From the IMG/VR virus record IMGVR_UViG_3300046616_000062, positions 1 through 40,441 of that record: a DNA stretch of 40,441 nt. One strand, written 5' to 3'. Position 1 is the first letter of the stretch. The number at the start of each line of letters is the position of its first letter. The position numbers were made by a program, and so were the translations under genes. Shown in pieces: positions 2,378-23,894 of this stretch. Below the pieces are notes generated by a model. That model was given only the letters and a program-made list of their open reading frames with translations. It made no database searches and had not been told where the DNA came from. The DNA is from a virus.

Positions 2378-4237
2378 CTATGCCGCTAGCGTCTCCGGCT
2401 CTTCCTGGGCGTCGTCCTGGGGCTGGGCCCAATGGATGATCACGCGACTCTTCACGTCCGGCACACGTCCGGGCCGGTTCGTGCCCTTCGGAAGCTTGAT
2501 GACCTCAATGCGGTCAATGAAGAGCTTCACCATGGCGCGCCGGTCGGCCATGTCGGCGTTCGCCCACCACGAATCGGGCCCCAGCGGGTCACTGCCCGGT
2601 TCGCCCAACCATTCGCCCGTCGGCAACTTCGGGTTGGTCGCTTCGTCCAGCTCACGCAAGCGCTCTTCGGCGCCTTCCATGCGAAGCGTGTGTGTGGCTT
2701 CTTCGTCAAGGAACGCGCGCCGTCCCATGGGCCCTTTGTATCCGCCTGCCCGCCGGTCTTCGTACATGTCCTCAAGGGCGCGTACGGCGTCGGCACGCTC
2801 CGCTAGAAGCTCTGCCCGCTGACCGGCCTTCTCCGGCTTCTCAGTGAGCTTGCCCCAGCGTCGAGCGGCTTCCCAGAGAAGGGCAACGGTGTCGTCGTCG
2901 GTCGGGTCCCCAGGGTCGACGGCAGCGATACGGGCGAAGATGCGACCGGCAATGAACGGGTCTAGGTGGTGCATCGTGATGGAGCACGAAGAGCCGTCGT
3001 GAATCCGGCGGGGGCACTTACAGGCGTACGACGACTTGTGCGCGCCTTCGCCTTCCCGAAGGTTGCCGCTCATGGTCGAGCCGTTCCCGTAACCCGTCTC
3101 AGGGTCGGTTACGCCGGAGCCGTGGCAGTACAGAATTTCCATTGCGCTGAGAAGCGACTGACCCCGGTATTGCCCCTTGCCGCGCCCCCTGCCATCTAGC
3201 CATGCCTGAAGTTCCCACCATTCCGACGGCTCGATGATCGCTCCGCACTCAAGCTCAATCGGGCGCATGGTCACGGGGTCGCGCTCAATGCGGTAGTGAG
3301 AGAAGCCGCCCCGGGAACCGTCTTCCCGAACCTTGTACACGATGCGTGCGGCGTATCCGGCAATGCGCGGGTCGCGAAGAACACGCTTCAGTACGGACGG
3401 GTCCCAATCGGAGTCGGCGCGCTTCTTCCCGGTTGTGTTGCCACGGGTCGGCACCTTGTCTTGCCAAAGACGCGTCACAAGGCCGTTCAGCGAACCGGGG
3501 TGAAACGATCCGGCGCCGCCACCCTTGAAGGGCGTTTCACGATGCGCCTTAATTTCGTCCCAGGCCCAGCGAATGACGCCCGGTTCAGATTCGTGTTTGC
3601 CGTCCCATTTCTTCGCCCCATGCTTGAGGACCTGAATTTGAACGGGCTTGTTGTTGTCGCCCGGATTCGGCACCATGCGCGACTCAGTGTCGAATCCGTA
3701 AGGAATGAAGCCGACGTGTCCGCCCAGGGAACGCGCAAGCTCTTTCGCGTCCTTGACGGCAACGCTCTTGTTCTTGCTTTCTTGATGCGACGCGTCGAGC
3801 CGCATAATCAGGTGAATCAAGTCCATGAGATTGCCCGCGCGGAACTGACCTTCGTTCACGCTGACAATGACGACGCCCATGTGAAGCAATTCGGTGAGTA
3901 CCGGGATTGCCTCAAGCGGGTTGCGGCGGGTGAGCCGCGAAATGTAATGAACAATGACCATGTTCACGATGCCCGCGCGACAGTCGGCCACAAGCCGGTT
4001 CCACTCAGGGCGCTCGACGCCGGAGAAGGCCGACGTGCCCGGGGCTTCGCTGTAGTGGCCAACCCACTTCACAACGGTGCCGTCGCGCCCGACTTCCCGC
4101 GCGAGTTGTTCGGCCTTCCCCTTGTTCGCTGCCCGCTGGGTGGCCGGTGACGCTACGCTACCGCTAGCGCGTTCGGCTGACTGCCTGTCATACCCTGCCG
4201 CGTGAATGGTCATCCCGCTGACCGTCCCTTGTGTCAT
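2378..4237 (-). CDS. int: Large serine integrase
   Basis: Site-specific recombinase that joins phage attP to a host attB. 619 residues from the ATG at 4235-4237, close in sequence to phiC31 integrase throughout. Catalytic serine is Ser20 in GYDRQS. Catalytic-domain signatures SEAPGTSAF, RAGNLMDLIHLIMRLDASH and the recombinase-domain block DPRIAGYAA and RDPVTMRPIELECG follow, and a long coiled-coil region occupies the C-terminal third. The longer reading frame upstream runs through attP and is not used. The zinc-ribbon region reads YCHGSG where phiC31 has YCECG, so one usual cysteine ligand is missing; the later cysteines (YACKCP and SSCS) remain. Direction control needs the RDF at 18774-19511. 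Confidence 0.96.
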   Translation of the reverse strand: MTQGTVSGMTIHAAGYDRQSAERASGSVASPATQRAANKGKAEQLAREVGRDGTVVKWVGHYSEAPGTSAFSGVERPEWNRLVADCRAGIVNMVIVHYISRLTRRNPLEAIPVLTELLHMGVVIVSVNEGQFRAGNLMDLIHLIMRLDASHQESKNKSVAVKDAKELARSLGGHVGFIPYGFDTESRMVPNPGDNNKPVQIQVLKHGAKKWDGKHESEPGVIRWAWDEIKAHRETPFKGGGAGSFHPGSLNGLVTRLWQDKVPTRGNTTGKKRADSDWDPSVLKRVLRDPRIAGYAARIVYKVREDGSRGGFSHYRIERDPVTMRPIELECGAIIEPSEWWELQAWLDGRGRGKGQYRGQSLLSAMEILYCHGSGVTDPETGYGNGSTMSGNLREGEGAHKSSYACKCPRRIHDGSSCSITMHHLDPFIAGRIFARIAAVDPGDPTDDDTVALLWEAARRWGKLTEKPEKAGQRAELLAERADAVRALEDMYEDRRAGGYKGPMGRRAFLDEEATHTLRMEGAEERLRELDEATNPKLPTGEWLGEPGSDPLGPDSWWANADMADRRAMVKLFIDRIEVIKLPKGTNRPGRVPDVKSRVIIHWAQPQDDAQEEPETLAA

Positions 4238-4252
4238 GGGGTGGAAGATTAG

Positions 4253-4296
4253 CCCACCCAACTGGGTAAAGCCAAAGTCTACACCAGTTGGGTGGG
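4253..4296. other. attP: attP attachment site
   Basis: Imperfect palindrome: CCCACCCAACTGG at 4253-4265 and CCAGTTGGGTGGG at 4284-4296 are inverse complements around a centre at 4274/4275, which is AA on plus (TT on minus). phiC31 attP has the same arms (CCCCAACTGGGG..., ...CTCAGTTGGGG) around a TT crossover in CTTTG, and here the minus strand reads GACTTTGGC. It lies 15 bp upstream of the integrase start, as expected. Being whole, it shows an unintegrated genome. Confidence 0.88.
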
Positions 4297-4453
4297 AACG
4301 GGCTGACCTGGGAAAACGTCCCTCAGCGGAGCCGTATCGGGCACCTTCCCACCCGCCCGGCTCAGGTCTAGGTCTGACCCAGTCCGGCGGGAACGACGAA
4401 GCCCCGCCCAACGCCCGGGGGAAGGCGCTGAACGGGGCGGCTCAGTGTCACGC

Positions 4454-4816
4454 TCAGTTATACGGAGTGATCGGCGTCGTGTATCCCTCCCAGGGTGAGC
4501 GTGTCGGCACGGGGAAGCCTGCCCAGTGCTCCGGCACACGGTCGCTGCCCTGGGCTTGCCACGTACGCCACTTCGTTCCGCAGTGCTCAAGCCACGACAA
4601 GGCTTCGTCGCGCGTCTCCCATTCGAGCGGGATTAGCTTCGGCGGCGTGACGGGTGTCTTGCTCTTGCCCTTGACCGGCTTCGGCAGCGTCGTCGGCAGT
4701 GCACAGAAGTCGCCCCACCACTCATCGAAAATGGCGAACGGGGCGTTGGTGCGGGCTTCCCATGTGCCGTCGGCGTTCATGGATATCGCCCGTTGTATGA
4801 CCCGATAGCGCCTCAC
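4454..4816 (-). CDS. Unknown protein, tandem paralogue B
   Basis: 120 residues, function not recognised. It is clearly related to the next gene upstream (4813-5109): both begin MRRYRVxQR, share a central block (APFAIFDEWWGDFCALP here, RPWVIFDGTMKGYCTLP there) and a later block (LIPLEWETRDEALSWL here, LLPLEWQTSDGAKAWL there). GTG start overlaps the stop of its paralogue (GTGA), with AGAAGG upstream, so the two are translationally coupled. Last gene before attP, in the accessory end of the early operon. No membrane or metal motifs. Confidence 0.7.
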   Translation of the reverse strand: MRRYRVIQRAISMNADGTWEARTNAPFAIFDEWWGDFCALPTTLPKPVKGKSKTPVTPPKLIPLEWETRDEALSWLEHCGTKWRTWQAQGSDRVPEHWAGFPVPTRSPWEGYTTPITPYN

Positions 4817-5109
4817 TGACCGACCTTCTCTCTTGAGACGTCGTACGGCACGTCAGCGCCCCCGATGAGCGGCACGCGCCCCCATGTCCGGTAGCACCGC
4901 ATGAGCCATGCCTTAGCTCCGTCCGACGTCTGCCATTCGAGCGGCAGCAAGTTCGCGCCGTCGTCGTCAGCGGGCAGGGTGCAATACCCCTTCATGGTGC
5001 CGTCGAAGATCACCCAGGGGCGACCCCGGACGGCTTCACGGCCTTCGTTCGTTGCCTGTACTTCCTGCCGCCATTCCGGCGGACGCTGTGTCACCCGATA
5101 TCGACGCAT
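4813..5109 (-). CDS. Unknown protein, tandem paralogue A
   Basis: 98 residues from the ATG at 5107-5109, chosen because the paralogue downstream also starts MRRYRV. A GTG at 5127 overlapping the previous stop is also possible and would add six residues. Shares the xxWVIFDxxxxxYCTLP and LLPLEWxTxDxAxxWL blocks with 4454-4816, so the pair arose by duplication. Acidic/aromatic, no transmembrane segment, function unknown. Confidence 0.7.
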   Translation of the reverse strand: MRRYRVTQRPPEWRQEVQATNEGREAVRGRPWVIFDGTMKGYCTLPADDDGANLLPLEWQTSDGAKAWLMRCYRTWGRVPLIGGADVPYDVSREKVGQ

Positions 5110-5123
5110 GGCAGCACCGTAGG

Positions 5124-5396
5124 TCACTCATTCTCAGTTGGGGAGAGTGTTACGAGGATTCCACCGTTCCGGGCTTCCCAGGTGCGCCCCCGCTCGACTT
5201 CAAACCTGCCGTCGGTCACAAGTTGCATGCGAAGGGGCGCCACGACGTTCAGCATGATGTGCGCAAGCGTTCCCGTGTCGTGCTCTTTCTCGTACGCCTC
5301 ACGCACGCCCCGGGCCAACTGTTCCGCTGCGCCGTCCGCCGTTTCGGCTTCGGCTTCGTCGGCTCCGTGATCTTCGATCACCCAGGCAATTTTCAT
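5124..5396 (-). CDS. Hypothetical small acidic protein
   Basis: 90 residues from ATG 5394-5396, starting MKIAWVIEDHGADEAEAE. The N-terminal third is strongly acidic, followed by a helical stretch (AAEQLARGVREAYEKEH) and a C-terminal part rich in beta residues. Not recognised. It follows a strong terminator (5412-5458) and heads a three-gene group with the tandem paralogues, whose starts overlap the preceding stops. Confidence 0.65.
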   Translation of the reverse strand: MKIAWVIEDHGADEAEAETADGAAEQLARGVREAYEKEHDTGTLAHIMLNVVAPLRMQLVTDGRFEVERGRTWEARNGGILVTLSPTENE

Positions 5397-5411
5397 GCGC
5401 TCAGCGTACGC

Positions 5412-5458
5412 AAAAAGCCCCGTACCAACCGCCTGGGTAGGCAGTCAGTACGGGGCTT
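5412..5458 (-). terminator. Rho-independent terminator
   Basis: Stem AAGCCCCGTAC/GTACGGGGCTT with a 22-nt loop; on the minus strand it ends in TTTTT, so it terminates transcription from the SpdB-like gene. The loop is shared with the terminator at 23846-23890 (ACCAACC...GGCAGTCAGTA). Confidence 0.85.
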
Positions 5459-5461
5459 CTC

Positions 5462-6163
5462 TCACACGGTCAGTTCGGCGTCGAGCTGGGCGAACTTCTT
5501 TCGCACAGTGGCAGGGTGCCGACCGGCAGCGGCAGCGACCTCAACCGGGTTCAGCTTGTGCCGCCACCCTTGCTCAATGATCTTGTTCGCCTCAGCGTTC
5601 GGCAGGCGCGCGCCATGGTCGTTGACCGGCTCCGGCTCTTCGTCGGCAACCGGCTCAGGAAGCTCTTCCTGTACCGGCTCCGGCTCCGGCAGGCGCTCAG
5701 GCTCCGTCGGGTCCGCCGTCGGCTCCGGGGCGCTTACAGGGGCGCTCAGGGCTTCCCGCTCAGCGTCGGCAAGCGCCGCCATGTACACGGGCCCGACTTC
5801 GGCAAGCAACATCACAAGCGCGGGTGCGATCAGGTGCACAGCCACGCCGACCCAGTCATGTGCCGACACGTTCAGCCACACGTTCAGGAAGACGCTCGAC
5901 AGTCCCGTGATCCATCGGAACGCGACCGGCCACGCACCCAGCTTCGTGACGCCGTACTTCGCCAACGTGCCTTCGGCCGATAGCGCCATGATGAAGGCAA
6001 CGTCAACGATCAGGCCCAGGACCCAGCCGGACCATGACCACGTGCTGTGTTCGCTGACGAAGGGCGTCGTCGTCATGAGGCTGTAAAAGACAAGCCCCAG
6101 GATCAGGAACCACCTGCCGCCGGTCAGTACCCGACGCGTTCTGACAATGGCCTTCGTGTCCAA
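5462..6163 (-). CDS. SpdB/DUF2637-like membrane protein with C-terminal HTH
   Basis: 233 residues. Four hydrophobic segments in the first 130 residues (roughly 18-35, 45-65, 80-98 and 108-128), then a Pro/Glu-rich linker of repeated EPEP-type units (about 140-185), then a helix-turn-helix-like end (NPVEVAAAAGRHPATVRKKFAQL). This plan resembles the SpdB/DUF2637 'spread' proteins of Streptomyces plasmids and phages; the family call is by architecture. TTG start at 6161-6163 with GAAGGAG 8 nt upstream. Its leader carries the GTNACCGACTCCCTT element (6209-6225), which can pair with that ribosome site. Role in the phage unknown; a membrane-tethered DNA-binding protein is the simplest reading. Confidence 0.65.
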   Translation of the reverse strand: MDTKAIVRTRRVLTGGRWFLILGLVFYSLMTTTPFVSEHSTWSWSGWVLGLIVDVAFIMALSAEGTLAKYGVTKLGAWPVAFRWITGLSSVFLNVWLNVSAHDWVGVAVHLIAPALVMLLAEVGPVYMAALADAEREALSAPVSAPEPTADPTEPERLPEPEPVQEELPEPVADEEPEPVNDHGARLPNAEANKIIEQGWRHKLNPVEVAAAAGRHPATVRKKFAQLDAELTV

Positions 6164-6208
6164 CTCCGTTACTCCTTCAGTGAGTTGTGATCTCTTCTGA
6201 AGGCCAGT

Positions 6209-6225
6209 AAGGGAGTCGGTGACTT
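6209..6225 (-). promoter_or_regulatory. Leader element, copy 2 (before the SpdB-like gene)
   Basis: AAGTCACCGACTCCCTT on the coding strand. CUCC(C)UU can pair with GAAGGAG, the ribosome binding site of the gene starting at 6163, leaving one bulged C. It begins 5 nt after the stop of the preceding gene. Confidence 0.65.
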
Positions 6226-20952: not shown

Positions 20953-21198
20953 TCAGCGCTGTAGCCGGTCCTTCACGACGTCGCCCAGGCGCTCATGTAC
21001 TGCGGTCACCGCAGCGTCTACGGCGGACGGCAAGCCCAGGGCGTCACGGCACGGCAGGCACGTCGGCTCAACCTTGCCGGTCGGGAACGACGGCATGGCG
21101 CCACACTCAGCGCTGTACACCCCAGGACCCTGCCGGAGCGCGTGAGTCTCCGTGTCGTCGTGTGACTCAACCGTCAGGTACTTCACTTCGTCGGTCAT
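20953..21198 (-). CDS. Hypothetical protein (phiC31 gp1 position)
   Basis: 81 residues from ATG 21196-21198 with AGGAAGG upstream. Contains ECGAMP and CLPC, a possible zinc site, and a helical C-terminus (AVDAAVTAVHERLGDVVKDRLQR). First gene downstream of the repressor-like gene, corresponding to phiC31 early gene 1. Function unknown. Confidence 0.7.
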   Translation of the reverse strand: MTDEVKYLTVESHDDTETHALRQGPGVYSAECGAMPSFPTGKVEPTCLPCRDALGLPSAVDAAVTAVHERLGDVVKDRLQR

Positions 21199-21217
21199 GG
21201 TCTGCCTTCCTACGGGC

Positions 21218-21247
21218 GAAGCCCCCGGGACGGTTCCCAGGGGCTTC
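21218..21247. terminator. Hairpin after repressor-like gene
   Basis: GAAGCCCC/GGGGCTTC perfect 8-bp stem with a 14-nt loop, 20 nt past the repressor-like stop. No U run. Confidence 0.65.
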
Positions 21248-21266
21248 ACACTCTGCGGTCAGTCGG

Positions 21267-23435
21267 TCACTCTTCGTCATCCGACGTAACAAGGGCGCTC
21301 AGGTCAAGGTCGAACGCGTCGGCAGCGCTGCGAATGATCGCGTACAGCTCCGCCTTCGCCTTCCGCTTGTCGGCAGCGCTCTTGACCTTGCCGAAGCGCT
21401 TCCCGGCCTTCTCCATAGCGGCCTTCACCTGGGTCAGCGCGTCGACCGTCTTCTGACCTTCGGTCTTCTCTTCCTTGTCGCCGTCCGGCACGAACTCAGC
21501 GGGAATCTCCGCCGTCAGTTCCTTCACGGCGCCCTCAAGCTCTTCGACCTTCGAAGCGTCGGCGTCGTCGGCTTCCTTCAGCGTCTCCAGTTCCTTCGTG
21601 GTCGCCTCAAGCTTCTTCACGCGCCGGTCGATACGGGCAAGCTCCGTACGGCCGTACTTCGGAAGCTCAACGCCCTTGTCGGCGTACAGCTCACGAATGG
21701 CGTCGGACGGCTTCAGCTCCGTCGGGTAGTCGGCTTCGTCAACGTCGGCGTCGGCCTTCGCCTCAGCGATCGCAGCGTCACGGGCTTCGAGCTTCGCGAC
21801 GGCACCCGGGAACAGGTTCCGCATGACCGTCAGCGTCTCTTCACGGTCCGGGCCGTTGAAGGACTCAAGCCAGTCACACAGCACGTCCGAAGCCTTGTTC
21901 TGAGTGGCGCGCTGAATCGAGCTGAACGCGGTAAGGCGCTCAACGTCGTCGTCGGCAATGCCCTTGCGAACTTCGTCGTACACGGCGCTGTGACTGTTCT
22001 TCGTCGTCTTCCGAATCGACGTCAGGTCGGGCAGGTTGTCAGCGTCCGGGTTCGGGATGCGGGTACGCATGTCGAGCATGGTGTGTGCCAGGCGCTCACC
22101 GACGTTGCCCAGCTTCAGGCCCAGGTCGATTCCCTCAGTGACGAACTTGACGCCGTCCTTCACGAGCTTCGGCACGCCGTCGAACTTGTTGAAGTCTTCG
22201 GCAACTTCGGCAGGCGCGGCAGCGGCCTTCTTCGCAACGGCCTTCGAAGCCGTCTTCTTCGCGGCAGGCGCCTCAGCGGCAGGGGCGTCGGCGGCAGGTG
22301 CCGGGTTCAGCTCCGTCAGCTTCGCCTTCTTCGCTTCGTTCACGGTCGAGCGCAGCGTGTTGCGGTGCTTCGTCGGAAGCTTCGCAATGATGTCTTCCGC
22401 CTGCCCAGCGTTCGCCTCAGCGGCGTCGGCGGACTCAGCGGCCTTGATTGCGTCGACGTGCTCATGAACGCGACTGATCTGAGCGTCAACGTCCTGGGTC
22501 GGCTCCGTGGCGGAAGCGGTCTTCTTCGCAGCGGCAGGCATGTCGTTCTCTCCCTTGTCGTCGCCCTCAACGGGCGTGATCTTCTTCTGAGTGACCGTCA
22601 GGTTCAGGCCCGGGACCTTCACCCGCTCTTCGGTCACGGTCACGTCGCCGGTCGGCACAACCTTCGAGCAACCGGCGCACAGCTCAATTTCGGGCTTCTG
22701 TTCCATGGCCGGACCGAAGGACCGAACCGGCGTCTTGAAGGCAGTCGGGCAGTAGGTGACGTTCCGGCCGTCGGCGTCAAGCTCCGGCTTCAGCGCGTGC
22801 ATGGTGCCGTTGCTGCCGGTCGCGCTGCCAATCCGAATGTCTCCCCGAACGTCCTTCAGCTTCAGCTTCTTCGCGGCCATGGTCGAGCCCCCATCGTTGT
22901 TGTTGTTGTCGTGCGCTGCCGACTCTACACGACTACTCACGTGAGTAGTCACGTCTTCGGCAATGTCGGCGTCGGTCACCACAACGAACGAGTCGGTACG
23001 GTTCCCGTCTTCGTCCACGTAGGCGACAGTCCAACCGGGCGTGATGTGGTCGGCGCCGGTCAGCTCCGTGTCGAACGTCCGGCCGTTCAGGGTCACGGTC
23101 ACGGCGTCACCGATCGTGCGCCCCATCCATTCGTCACCGCGCGGGTCACGGTTCAAGCGCTCTTCGCGGGCAACGCGCTCAGCCTCAATCATGGCTTCAG
23201 CGGCCTTCTCACAGTGCTTGCACAGCTTGCGACCCCCAGCCTTACGCGCTGCCTCAAGGGCGTCTTCAACGTCTTCGAACCGGGCGCCGTCAGCGAAGGT
23301 GTACCGGGTCAGCGAAGGGCAGGCGCTCAGCGCGTAGTCCGACACGTGGTCGCCCATGTCGTTGCCGCCGCCGGTCGAGCGAATCGCAAGCCCGTCAATG
23401 TGGTTGGTCGTCCGGTTGTACTTGACCGTGAACAT
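21267..23435 (-). CDS. c: phiC31 c-type repressor with nested in-frame starts
   Basis: 722-residue frame with three well-supported starts. ATG 23435 has GGGGCGGGG upstream. ATG 22880 (MAAKKLKLK, 537 residues) has GGGGG upstream. ATG 22541 (MPAAAKKTA, 424 residues) has AGGGAGAG upstream at 6 nt. Expected masses are near 77, 57 and 45 kDa. phiC31 c makes 74, 54 and 42 kDa proteins of this kind from one frame. Operator site 9 lies in the frame between starts 1 and 2. Visible features: CKHC and YCP...CAGC cysteine motifs, an Ala/Lys-rich linker, a helix-turn-helix-like stretch (LTSIRKTTKNSHSAVYDEVR) in the common C-terminal part, and coiled coils. Its place before early genes 1-3 fits. Function is by analogy; no sequence match was run. 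Confidence 0.78.
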   Translation of the reverse strand: MFTVKYNRTTNHIDGLAIRSTGGGNDMGDHVSDYALSACPSLTRYTFADGARFEDVEDALEAARKAGGRKLCKHCEKAAEAMIEAERVAREERLNRDPRGDEWMGRTIGDAVTVTLNGRTFDTELTGADHITPGWTVAYVDEDGNRTDSFVVVTDADIAEDVTTHVSSRVESAAHDNNNNDGGSTMAAKKLKLKDVRGDIRIGSATGSNGTMHALKPELDADGRNVTYCPTAFKTPVRSFGPAMEQKPEIELCAGCSKVVPTGDVTVTEERVKVPGLNLTVTQKKITPVEGDDKGENDMPAAAKKTASATEPTQDVDAQISRVHEHVDAIKAAESADAAEANAGQAEDIIAKLPTKHRNTLRSTVNEAKKAKLTELNPAPAADAPAAEAPAAKKTASKAVAKKAAAAPAEVAEDFNKFDGVPKLVKDGVKFVTEGIDLGLKLGNVGERLAHTMLDMRTRIPNPDADNLPDLTSIRKTTKNSHSAVYDEVRKGIADDDVERLTAFSSIQRATQNKASDVLCDWLESFNGPDREETLTVMRNLFPGAVAKLEARDAAIAEAKADADVDEADYPTELKPSDAIRELYADKGVELPKYGRTELARIDRRVKKLEATTKELETLKEADDADASKVEELEGAVKELTAEIPAEFVPDGDKEEKTEGQKTVDALTQVKAAMEKAGKRFGKVKSAADKRKAKAELYAIIRSAADAFDLDLSALVTSDDEE
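22934..22947. promoter_or_regulatory. Operator-like palindrome, site 9 of 15 (inside c)
   Basis: Core TACTCACGTGAGTA inside the repressor frame, translated as TTHVSSR. On the minus strand TAGAGT follows at -10-like distance and the second internal start is about 50 nt further on, so it likely controls an internal promoter for the shorter products. Confidence 0.75.
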
Positions 23436-23504
23436 GAGCCCCGCCCCTTCGTCGTCTTCGCTGTGCTGTGCTCAGCCTAGTGCCCTAGACCCCGGTTTTG
23501 TGAC

Positions 23505-23518
23505 TACTCACGTGAGTA
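23505..23518. promoter_or_regulatory. Operator-like palindrome, site 10 of 15 (c upstream)
   Basis: Core TACTCACGTGAGTA, 70 nt before the first c start; right flank GAC. Fits autoregulation of the repressor. Confidence 0.8.
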
Positions 23519-23595: not shown

Positions 23596-23769
23596 TTAGT
23601 CGTCAAGGGTTTCAACTTCTTCGTACGCCCCGAAGATGAACCGGTCGGCTCCGTTGCTGATCATGGTCGTCAGGGCGTACATGTCCGACGCCACCGTACG
23701 GACCGGCATCAAGCCGCCTTCGGTGACCAACGTTTCCCCGTAAGTGACGTCCTTCGCGCGCTTCAACAT
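23596..23769 (-). CDS. Hypothetical small protein
   Basis: 57 residues from ATG 23767-23769 with AAGGGGG upstream. Reads MLKRAKDVTYGETLVTEGGLMPVRT and ends AYEEVETLDD; acidic C-terminus, no motif recognised. It sits between the dNMP kinase terminator/operator and the repressor-like gene, with operator site 11 about 40 nt upstream, so it may be regulated together with c. Confidence 0.6.
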   Translation of the reverse strand: MLKRAKDVTYGETLVTEGGLMPVRTVASDMYALTTMISNGADRFIFGAYEEVETLDD

Positions 23770-23808: not shown

Positions 23809-23822
23809 TACTCACGTGAGTA
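23809..23822. promoter_or_regulatory. Operator-like palindrome, site 11 of 15
   Basis: Core TACTCACGTGAGTA with GAC/GTC flanks, between the dNMP kinase terminator and the 57-residue gene. Confidence 0.8.
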
Positions 23823-23845: not shown

Positions 23846-23890
23846 AAAAAAGCCCCCTACCAACCACCCGAAGGCAGTCAGTAGGGGGCC
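23846..23890 (-). terminator. Rho-independent terminator
   Basis: GCCCCCTAC/GTAGGGGGC stem with a loop that matches the loop of the terminator at 5412-5458; followed by TTTTTT on the minus strand. Ends the late/dNMP kinase transcript before the immunity region. Confidence 0.85.
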
Positions 23891-23894
23891 CGTG

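Follow-up and report, generated by a model that had tools for sequence, protein, structure and literature searches.

The c gene and its neighborhood

The window analysed here is the whole 40,441-nucleotide stretch of the virus record IMGVR_UViG_3300046616_000062 (positions 1 to 40,441). The phage is an uncultured relative of the Streptomyces phage phiC31, and by family membership its ORF at 23435-21267 on the minus strand is the immunity repressor gene c: the product matches the Pfam family PF25746 ("Streptomyces phage repressor protein c") with an E-value of 3e-111 (372 bits against a cut-off of 27), as well as PHROG 19947 (E = 1e-174), the family that also holds phiC31 c. These two matches, together with starts that align with those of phiC31, bear out the earlier note's call of a repressor gene related to the c proteins, and a search of the whole record with PF25746 recovered this ORF as its single match and no second repressor. 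Searches of NCBIfam and of PDB sequences with the window c returned nothing useful. The flanking DNA matches that of phiC31, Shawty, phiBT1, Samora and Lilbooboo, and by this match c is placed between the genes for a deoxynucleoside monophosphate kinase and an exonuclease. The features of the locus are collected in Table 1. The inverted repeat that follows c probably corresponds to the C/C′ terminator in the annotation of X12865; the small operator-headed gene upstream, which resembles phiBT1 gp52.1, showed no Pfam family over the cut-off and no PHROG match.

Table 1. Features in and around the c gene of the window
Feature	Position	Strand	Basis
Inverted repeat after c (GAAGCCCC...GGGGCTTC)	21218..21247	-	sequence
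Long form of the c repressor, starting at S1 (722 aa, 77.7 kDa)	21267..23435	-	PF25746, PHROG 19947, phiC31 c alignment
Predicted product from S2 (537 aa, 57.6 kDa), corresponding to the 54 kDa form of phiC31	21267..22880	-	start alignment, ribosome site
Predicted product from S3 (424 aa, 45.6 kDa), corresponding to the 42 kDa form of phiC31	21267..22541	-	start alignment, ribosome site
S2-specific module B (MAAKKLKLKDVRGD...CAGCSK)	22600..22880	-	sequence comparison
S2 leader and ribosome site, ending in the S2 ATG; translated in the long form as linker SAAHDNNNNDGGST up to Met	22878..22921	-	likeness to outer c leaders; translation
-10-like TAGAGT, 41 nt upstream of S2 and held by the sole GTA codon of the ORF	22922..22927	-	motif and codon count
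In-frame operator TACTCACGTGAGTA, read as THVS	22934..22947	.	exact match; between modules A and B
Module A, specific to S1 (aa 2-77, CxxC)	23205..23432	-	Dryad gp100, 55% identity, E 2e-19
TAGGCT, -10-like box, 38 nt before S1	23474..23479	-	motif
Operator upstream of S1	23505..23518	.	operator search
Operator-headed small gene, phiBT1 gp52.1-like (57 aa)	23596..23769	-	comparison with relatives
Operator upstream of the 52.1-like gene	23809..23822	.	operator search
Terminator-like hairpin ending the upstream unit	23850..23891	-	hairpin scan

Two further observations concern the window at large. A 772-aa open frame runs antisense to the whole of c (21162-23480, plus strand) and has 732-aa counterparts in phiC31 and Shawty; it is probably a codon-bias shadow. 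Near the left end lie two tRNA-like genes on the minus strand (1699-1782 and 1850-1924), one with a two-base anticodon call and the other a tRNA-Thr.

Nested starts and exchangeable N-terminal modules

Three in-frame ATGs, S1, S2 and S3, open into the common stop at 21267. The masses computed for their products agree with the roughly 77, 57 and 45 kDa that had been proposed from the letters alone and likened to the 74/54/42 kDa set of phiC31; in the alignment with phiC31 c, the three starts line up with those for its 74.1, 53.8 and 41.9 kDa forms. Among the 12 in-frame ATGs of the ORF the same three also rank best by SD/anti-SD duplex energy (S1 -11.3, S2 -8.8 and S3 -8.9 kcal/mol, the next best being -6.8), and, against a median of -8.9 for the annotated phiC31 starts, S2 is about level and S1 and S3 are equal or beyond. 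The description of all three ribosome sites as good needs qualification only for S2, whose site GATGGGGG is adequate and among the best three, yet weaker than the GAAGGGGG of close relatives. Given that 19% of in-frame positions in the window c already attain -6 kcal/mol, one might argue that a single form of c is made and that the in-frame ATGs with their ribosome-like sites are the chance products of a purine-rich gene; we consider this highly improbable in the face of the top ranking of S1-S3 and of the conservation of their positions with phiC31, for which three repressor isoforms are reported in PMC4557955 (citing Smith and Owen 1991). The window c carries the set of three nested starts known from phiC31, with the isoforms themselves predicted. 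Its anatomy is already known, as the same layout is present in the published phiC31 sequence.

Comparison with the relatives establishes, at the sequence level, an architecture that is both conserved and mosaic: a single helical core is encoded from S3 onward, preceded by two optional N-terminal modules. Every start opens a module of its own, and these N-terminal modules have been swapped among the phages. An AlphaFold model agrees with this division insofar as the core is confidently folded and helical from about residue 314, S3 lies at residue 299 and the S3 form contains the entire folded core, while the N-terminal modules are modelled unreliably from a 17-sequence alignment. With this model Foldseek returned no PDB match under an E-value of 0.001, and VIA-align gave no Z of 8 or more for the helical model; the only confident structural neighbors are other Streptomyces phage repressors.

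Module A is common to the window and Shawty, whereas phiC31 has another and TG1 and the contig L028 have a third (MQRTEVY...). The module MKFTAEYK... is common to TG1, L028 and L021, and L027 has one of its own. Relatives of module A are found in otherwise unrelated 69-kb Streptomyces phages, where it forms the N-termini of Dryad gp100 and Wentworth gp95 (L121 1495-2226 and L122 1492-2268). Between the window and phiC31, DNA identity is 90-97% over codons 101-160 and about 50% directly before them, as expected from a recent exchange. The clearest apparent case of stacked modules is phiBT1, in which a Vash-type module, an in-frame operator at the joint, an L034-type module and the core follow each other: its module 1 compares with the Vash module at z 39, its module 2 with that of L034 at z 34 and the two with each other at z 18. 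No pair that included module A or B of the window attained z 3 in this comparison, and a common origin of these two is not claimed.

The same themes emerge from the individual relatives. phiC31 c (NC_001978 gene c; X12865) resembles the window gene in family, gene position, its three aligned starts, operator sequence, and the in-frame operator and TAGAGT before S2, but module A is unrelated over its first ~63 aa, the cores are about 55% identical, and the 52.1-like gene that lies between two operators in the window is missing from phiC31. Shawty gp22, annotated as hypothetical, has the same modules, layout and in-frame operator, with 74% identity over the first 297 aa; it differs in a GTG at S3 and a stronger S2 ribosome site. 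phiBT1 c likewise has an in-frame operator and nested starts (predicted 60.6, 50.8 and 42.9 kDa), but its modules are of another type, namely two paralogous NVVSV...CxxC modules flanking the operator. The repressors of Vash, Lilbooboo and Samora (454-455 aa) share the core family and the upstream operator, but have one module, no in-frame operator and a separate 52.1-like gene upstream. We also observed a c-like gene in the prophage L124, in which a Sebastisaurus-like module is stacked on an MPKKGxRLPWRL module; internal starts close to their joint are strong, and a CIR-type operator was not present there.

The operator within the frame and the region before S2

The operator TACTCACGTGAGTA occurs in 15 exact copies in the window, against none for a reversed-pattern control. 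As the earlier note had stated, the ninth copy from the left falls within the c frame, where it is translated T-THVS-SR. With its usual flanks the palindrome leaves a single frame open, THVS, as the other two hit TGA or TAG, and every in-frame operator in the relatives uses this frame. It recurs at the equivalent place in phiC31 (L001 21705-21718), Shawty (L004 22084), phiBT1 (L002 22049), TG1 (a variant ending GTG), the window-like contigs L013-L019 and L027, and it is present twice in L028; given its presence in phiC31, it is not peculiar to the window phage. A second operator within the open frame of L027 probably lies upstream of the true start. The short repressors of Vash, Lilbooboo and Samora have no in-frame operator, nor does one long form, that of L021/L046, which includes a Streptomyces sp. 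NRRL S-455 locus. The exact 12-bp palindrome core of the operator and the rare codons are otherwise kept across phages with unrelated neighboring modules. Synonymous conservation over the operator among the long forms of the window, L014, phiC31 and Shawty is unexceptional (rank about 135 of 660 windows); such constraint fails to set the operator apart, the neighboring module being itself very alike between the window and phiC31 (97% over some 60-nt blocks), and we dropped it as support for operator function.

Operators of other kinds were seen around related genes. In Heather, RemusLoopin and Sebastisaurus (L117, L118 and L007) a different palindrome, ACTCTTAAGAGT, lies upstream of the 52.1-like gene; these phages likely have a different immunity specificity within the same repressor family. 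Around a c-like gene of the Streptomyces prophage L125 lie palindromes of 24 and 28 bp with TACCTCACGTGAGGTA as their basis, at offsets 178 and 2220 relative to the start of the open frame; they are probably another operator variant.

On the coding strand the in-frame operator is followed, as had been noticed, by a -10-like TAGAGT (22927-22922, minus strand), which sits in the window's only TAGAGTCGGC (0.06 expected). A consensus scan of the region found no canonical sigma-70 promoter, since the -35 match is missing. The spacing of the TAGRNT box is regular at its downstream side: it lies 41 nt from the inner start (38 in one L028 copy), versus a variable 4-28 nt from the operator, and 35-38 nt before the outer starts of the window, L014, L015, phiC31, Shawty, L021 and L028. 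Overall, 19 of 70 operator-to-start leaders contain TAGRNT, compared with 1.3 in shuffles; since the set includes related phages, these are not independent cases. In translated leaders the rare codon GTA holds the box at nearly all sites (ATA in TG1); in the phiBT1 inner leader GTA is present but the box reads TACAGT, one base off TAGRNT. GTA makes up 4.4% of the Val codons in the window genes used, and occurs once among the 52 Val codons of the window ORF, in the box itself, and once among the 54 of phiC31 c.

The stretch from operator to S2 looks like a copy of the operator-promoter-leader region upstream of c. A profile HMM built from 11 outer, untranslated leaders only, with the operator left out, picks up the inner leaders of Shawty (E = 9e-4), L014 (1.3e-3), TG1 (0.012), phiC31 (0.014), phiBT1 (0.018) and L028 (0.04 and 0.06). 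With E = 0.26 the window's own inner leader is weak in this search, and some few leaders from other phages do as well. In L021/L046, GAAGAGTCG replaces the GTAGAGTCG of the others; operator and TAG box appear to have been lost together, with the S2 start retained and its ribosome site kept (-11.9). The inner operator is accordingly dispensable in these long forms.

Proposed inner control and stacking of cassettes

We favor the reading that the known three-isoform repressor probably has inner isoforms under an autoregulated promoter of their own, which arose by the stacking of operator-headed cassettes. The operator, TAGAGT, leader and S2 ribosome site would constitute a complete control region for the shorter isoforms, related to the one upstream of S1 and now serving as the linker THVSSRVESAAHDNNNNDGGST in the long form. 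Transcription from the outer promoter would yield the long isoform, and the inner promoter would additionally supply the S2 and S3 isoforms. Repressor bound to the inner operator would turn the inner promoter off and could, in addition, halt RNA polymerase coming from the outer promoter; with the former shut and the outer transcripts possibly blocked, the isoform ratio would follow the repressor level. Historically, a cassette comprising operator, leader, start and small module would have been stacked in frame before another. Promoter activity, isoform production, the roadblock and the order of these events we infer from comparison of the sequences.

The inner operator might instead act purely as a roadblock, halting polymerase from the outer promoter in the manner of the L5/R4 stoperators, with no inner promoter and with S2 and S3 translated from the outer mRNA. 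The missing -35 match accords with this, as do the S2 and S3 ribosome sites, which are good and usable from any mRNA, and the many CIRs of these phages that are intergenic without an obvious promoter; moreover, stoperator use has been reported for R4-like Streptomyces phages (PMC10276819). The mycobacteriophage L5 and R4-type systems resemble the window in their many dispersed repressor sites (18-30 in phiC31 and L5 together; PMC4557955) and a possible block to elongation, but according to PMC4557955 the L5 sites lack symmetry and bind a monomer, whereas all operators in the window are perfect palindromes. As a pure roadblock would leave unexplained the set distance of TAGRNT to the inner starts, the retention of the rare codon and the joint loss of operator and TAG box in L021/L046, we regard it as unlikely. 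We deem it quite unlikely, too, that the inner operator and leader are relics of a cassette fusion with no present role, any isoforms arising by translation alone: the dispensability of the operator in L021/L046, the drift of the window leader from the outer-leader profile and the lack of special synonymous constraint among the nearest relatives are compatible with such a relic, but not the retention of the exact palindrome core and rare codons beside unrelated modules.

Beyond the window, L027 and L028 have runs of operators spaced about 240-320 bp, upstream of and into c. In the ~850 bases upstream of c in these two contigs, several of the operators head small ORFs (MIKRAKDV..., MESPLFVEE... 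and MNIGLIDYM...). The L028 gene (IMGVR_UViG_3300049137_000021, about 3873-6218) encodes a 781-aa c with four good starts, and a C2H2-like finger (CPECGDEFANGEYLNLHIHAEH) is inserted directly before its S3.

More generally, it may equally well hold or fail that repressor genes of this phage group grow and diversify by the in-frame stacking of cassettes (operator, promoter, leader, start and a small CxxC-type module) upstream of a constant core, whereby control DNA is turned into coding linkers and each cassette adds one autoregulated isoform. If it does hold, L028 and TG1 are predicted to make four forms, those of TG1 with masses of 83, 64, 55 and 44 kDa. We found no description of this comparative case, with its predicted four-start TG1 and L028 forms, in the literature covered; an inner promoter or the in-frame operator of phiC31 may already be on record in older phiC31 papers. 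The production of three repressor isoforms by a single phiC31 gene has reportedly been known since 1991, and the relatives now suggest why the three exist and how the arrangement arose. Nature has also provided variants without the inner operator (L021/L046), with two of them (L028) and with one or two modules (Vash, L034 and phiBT1), which permit direct tests of what the individual isoforms and the in-frame operator do.
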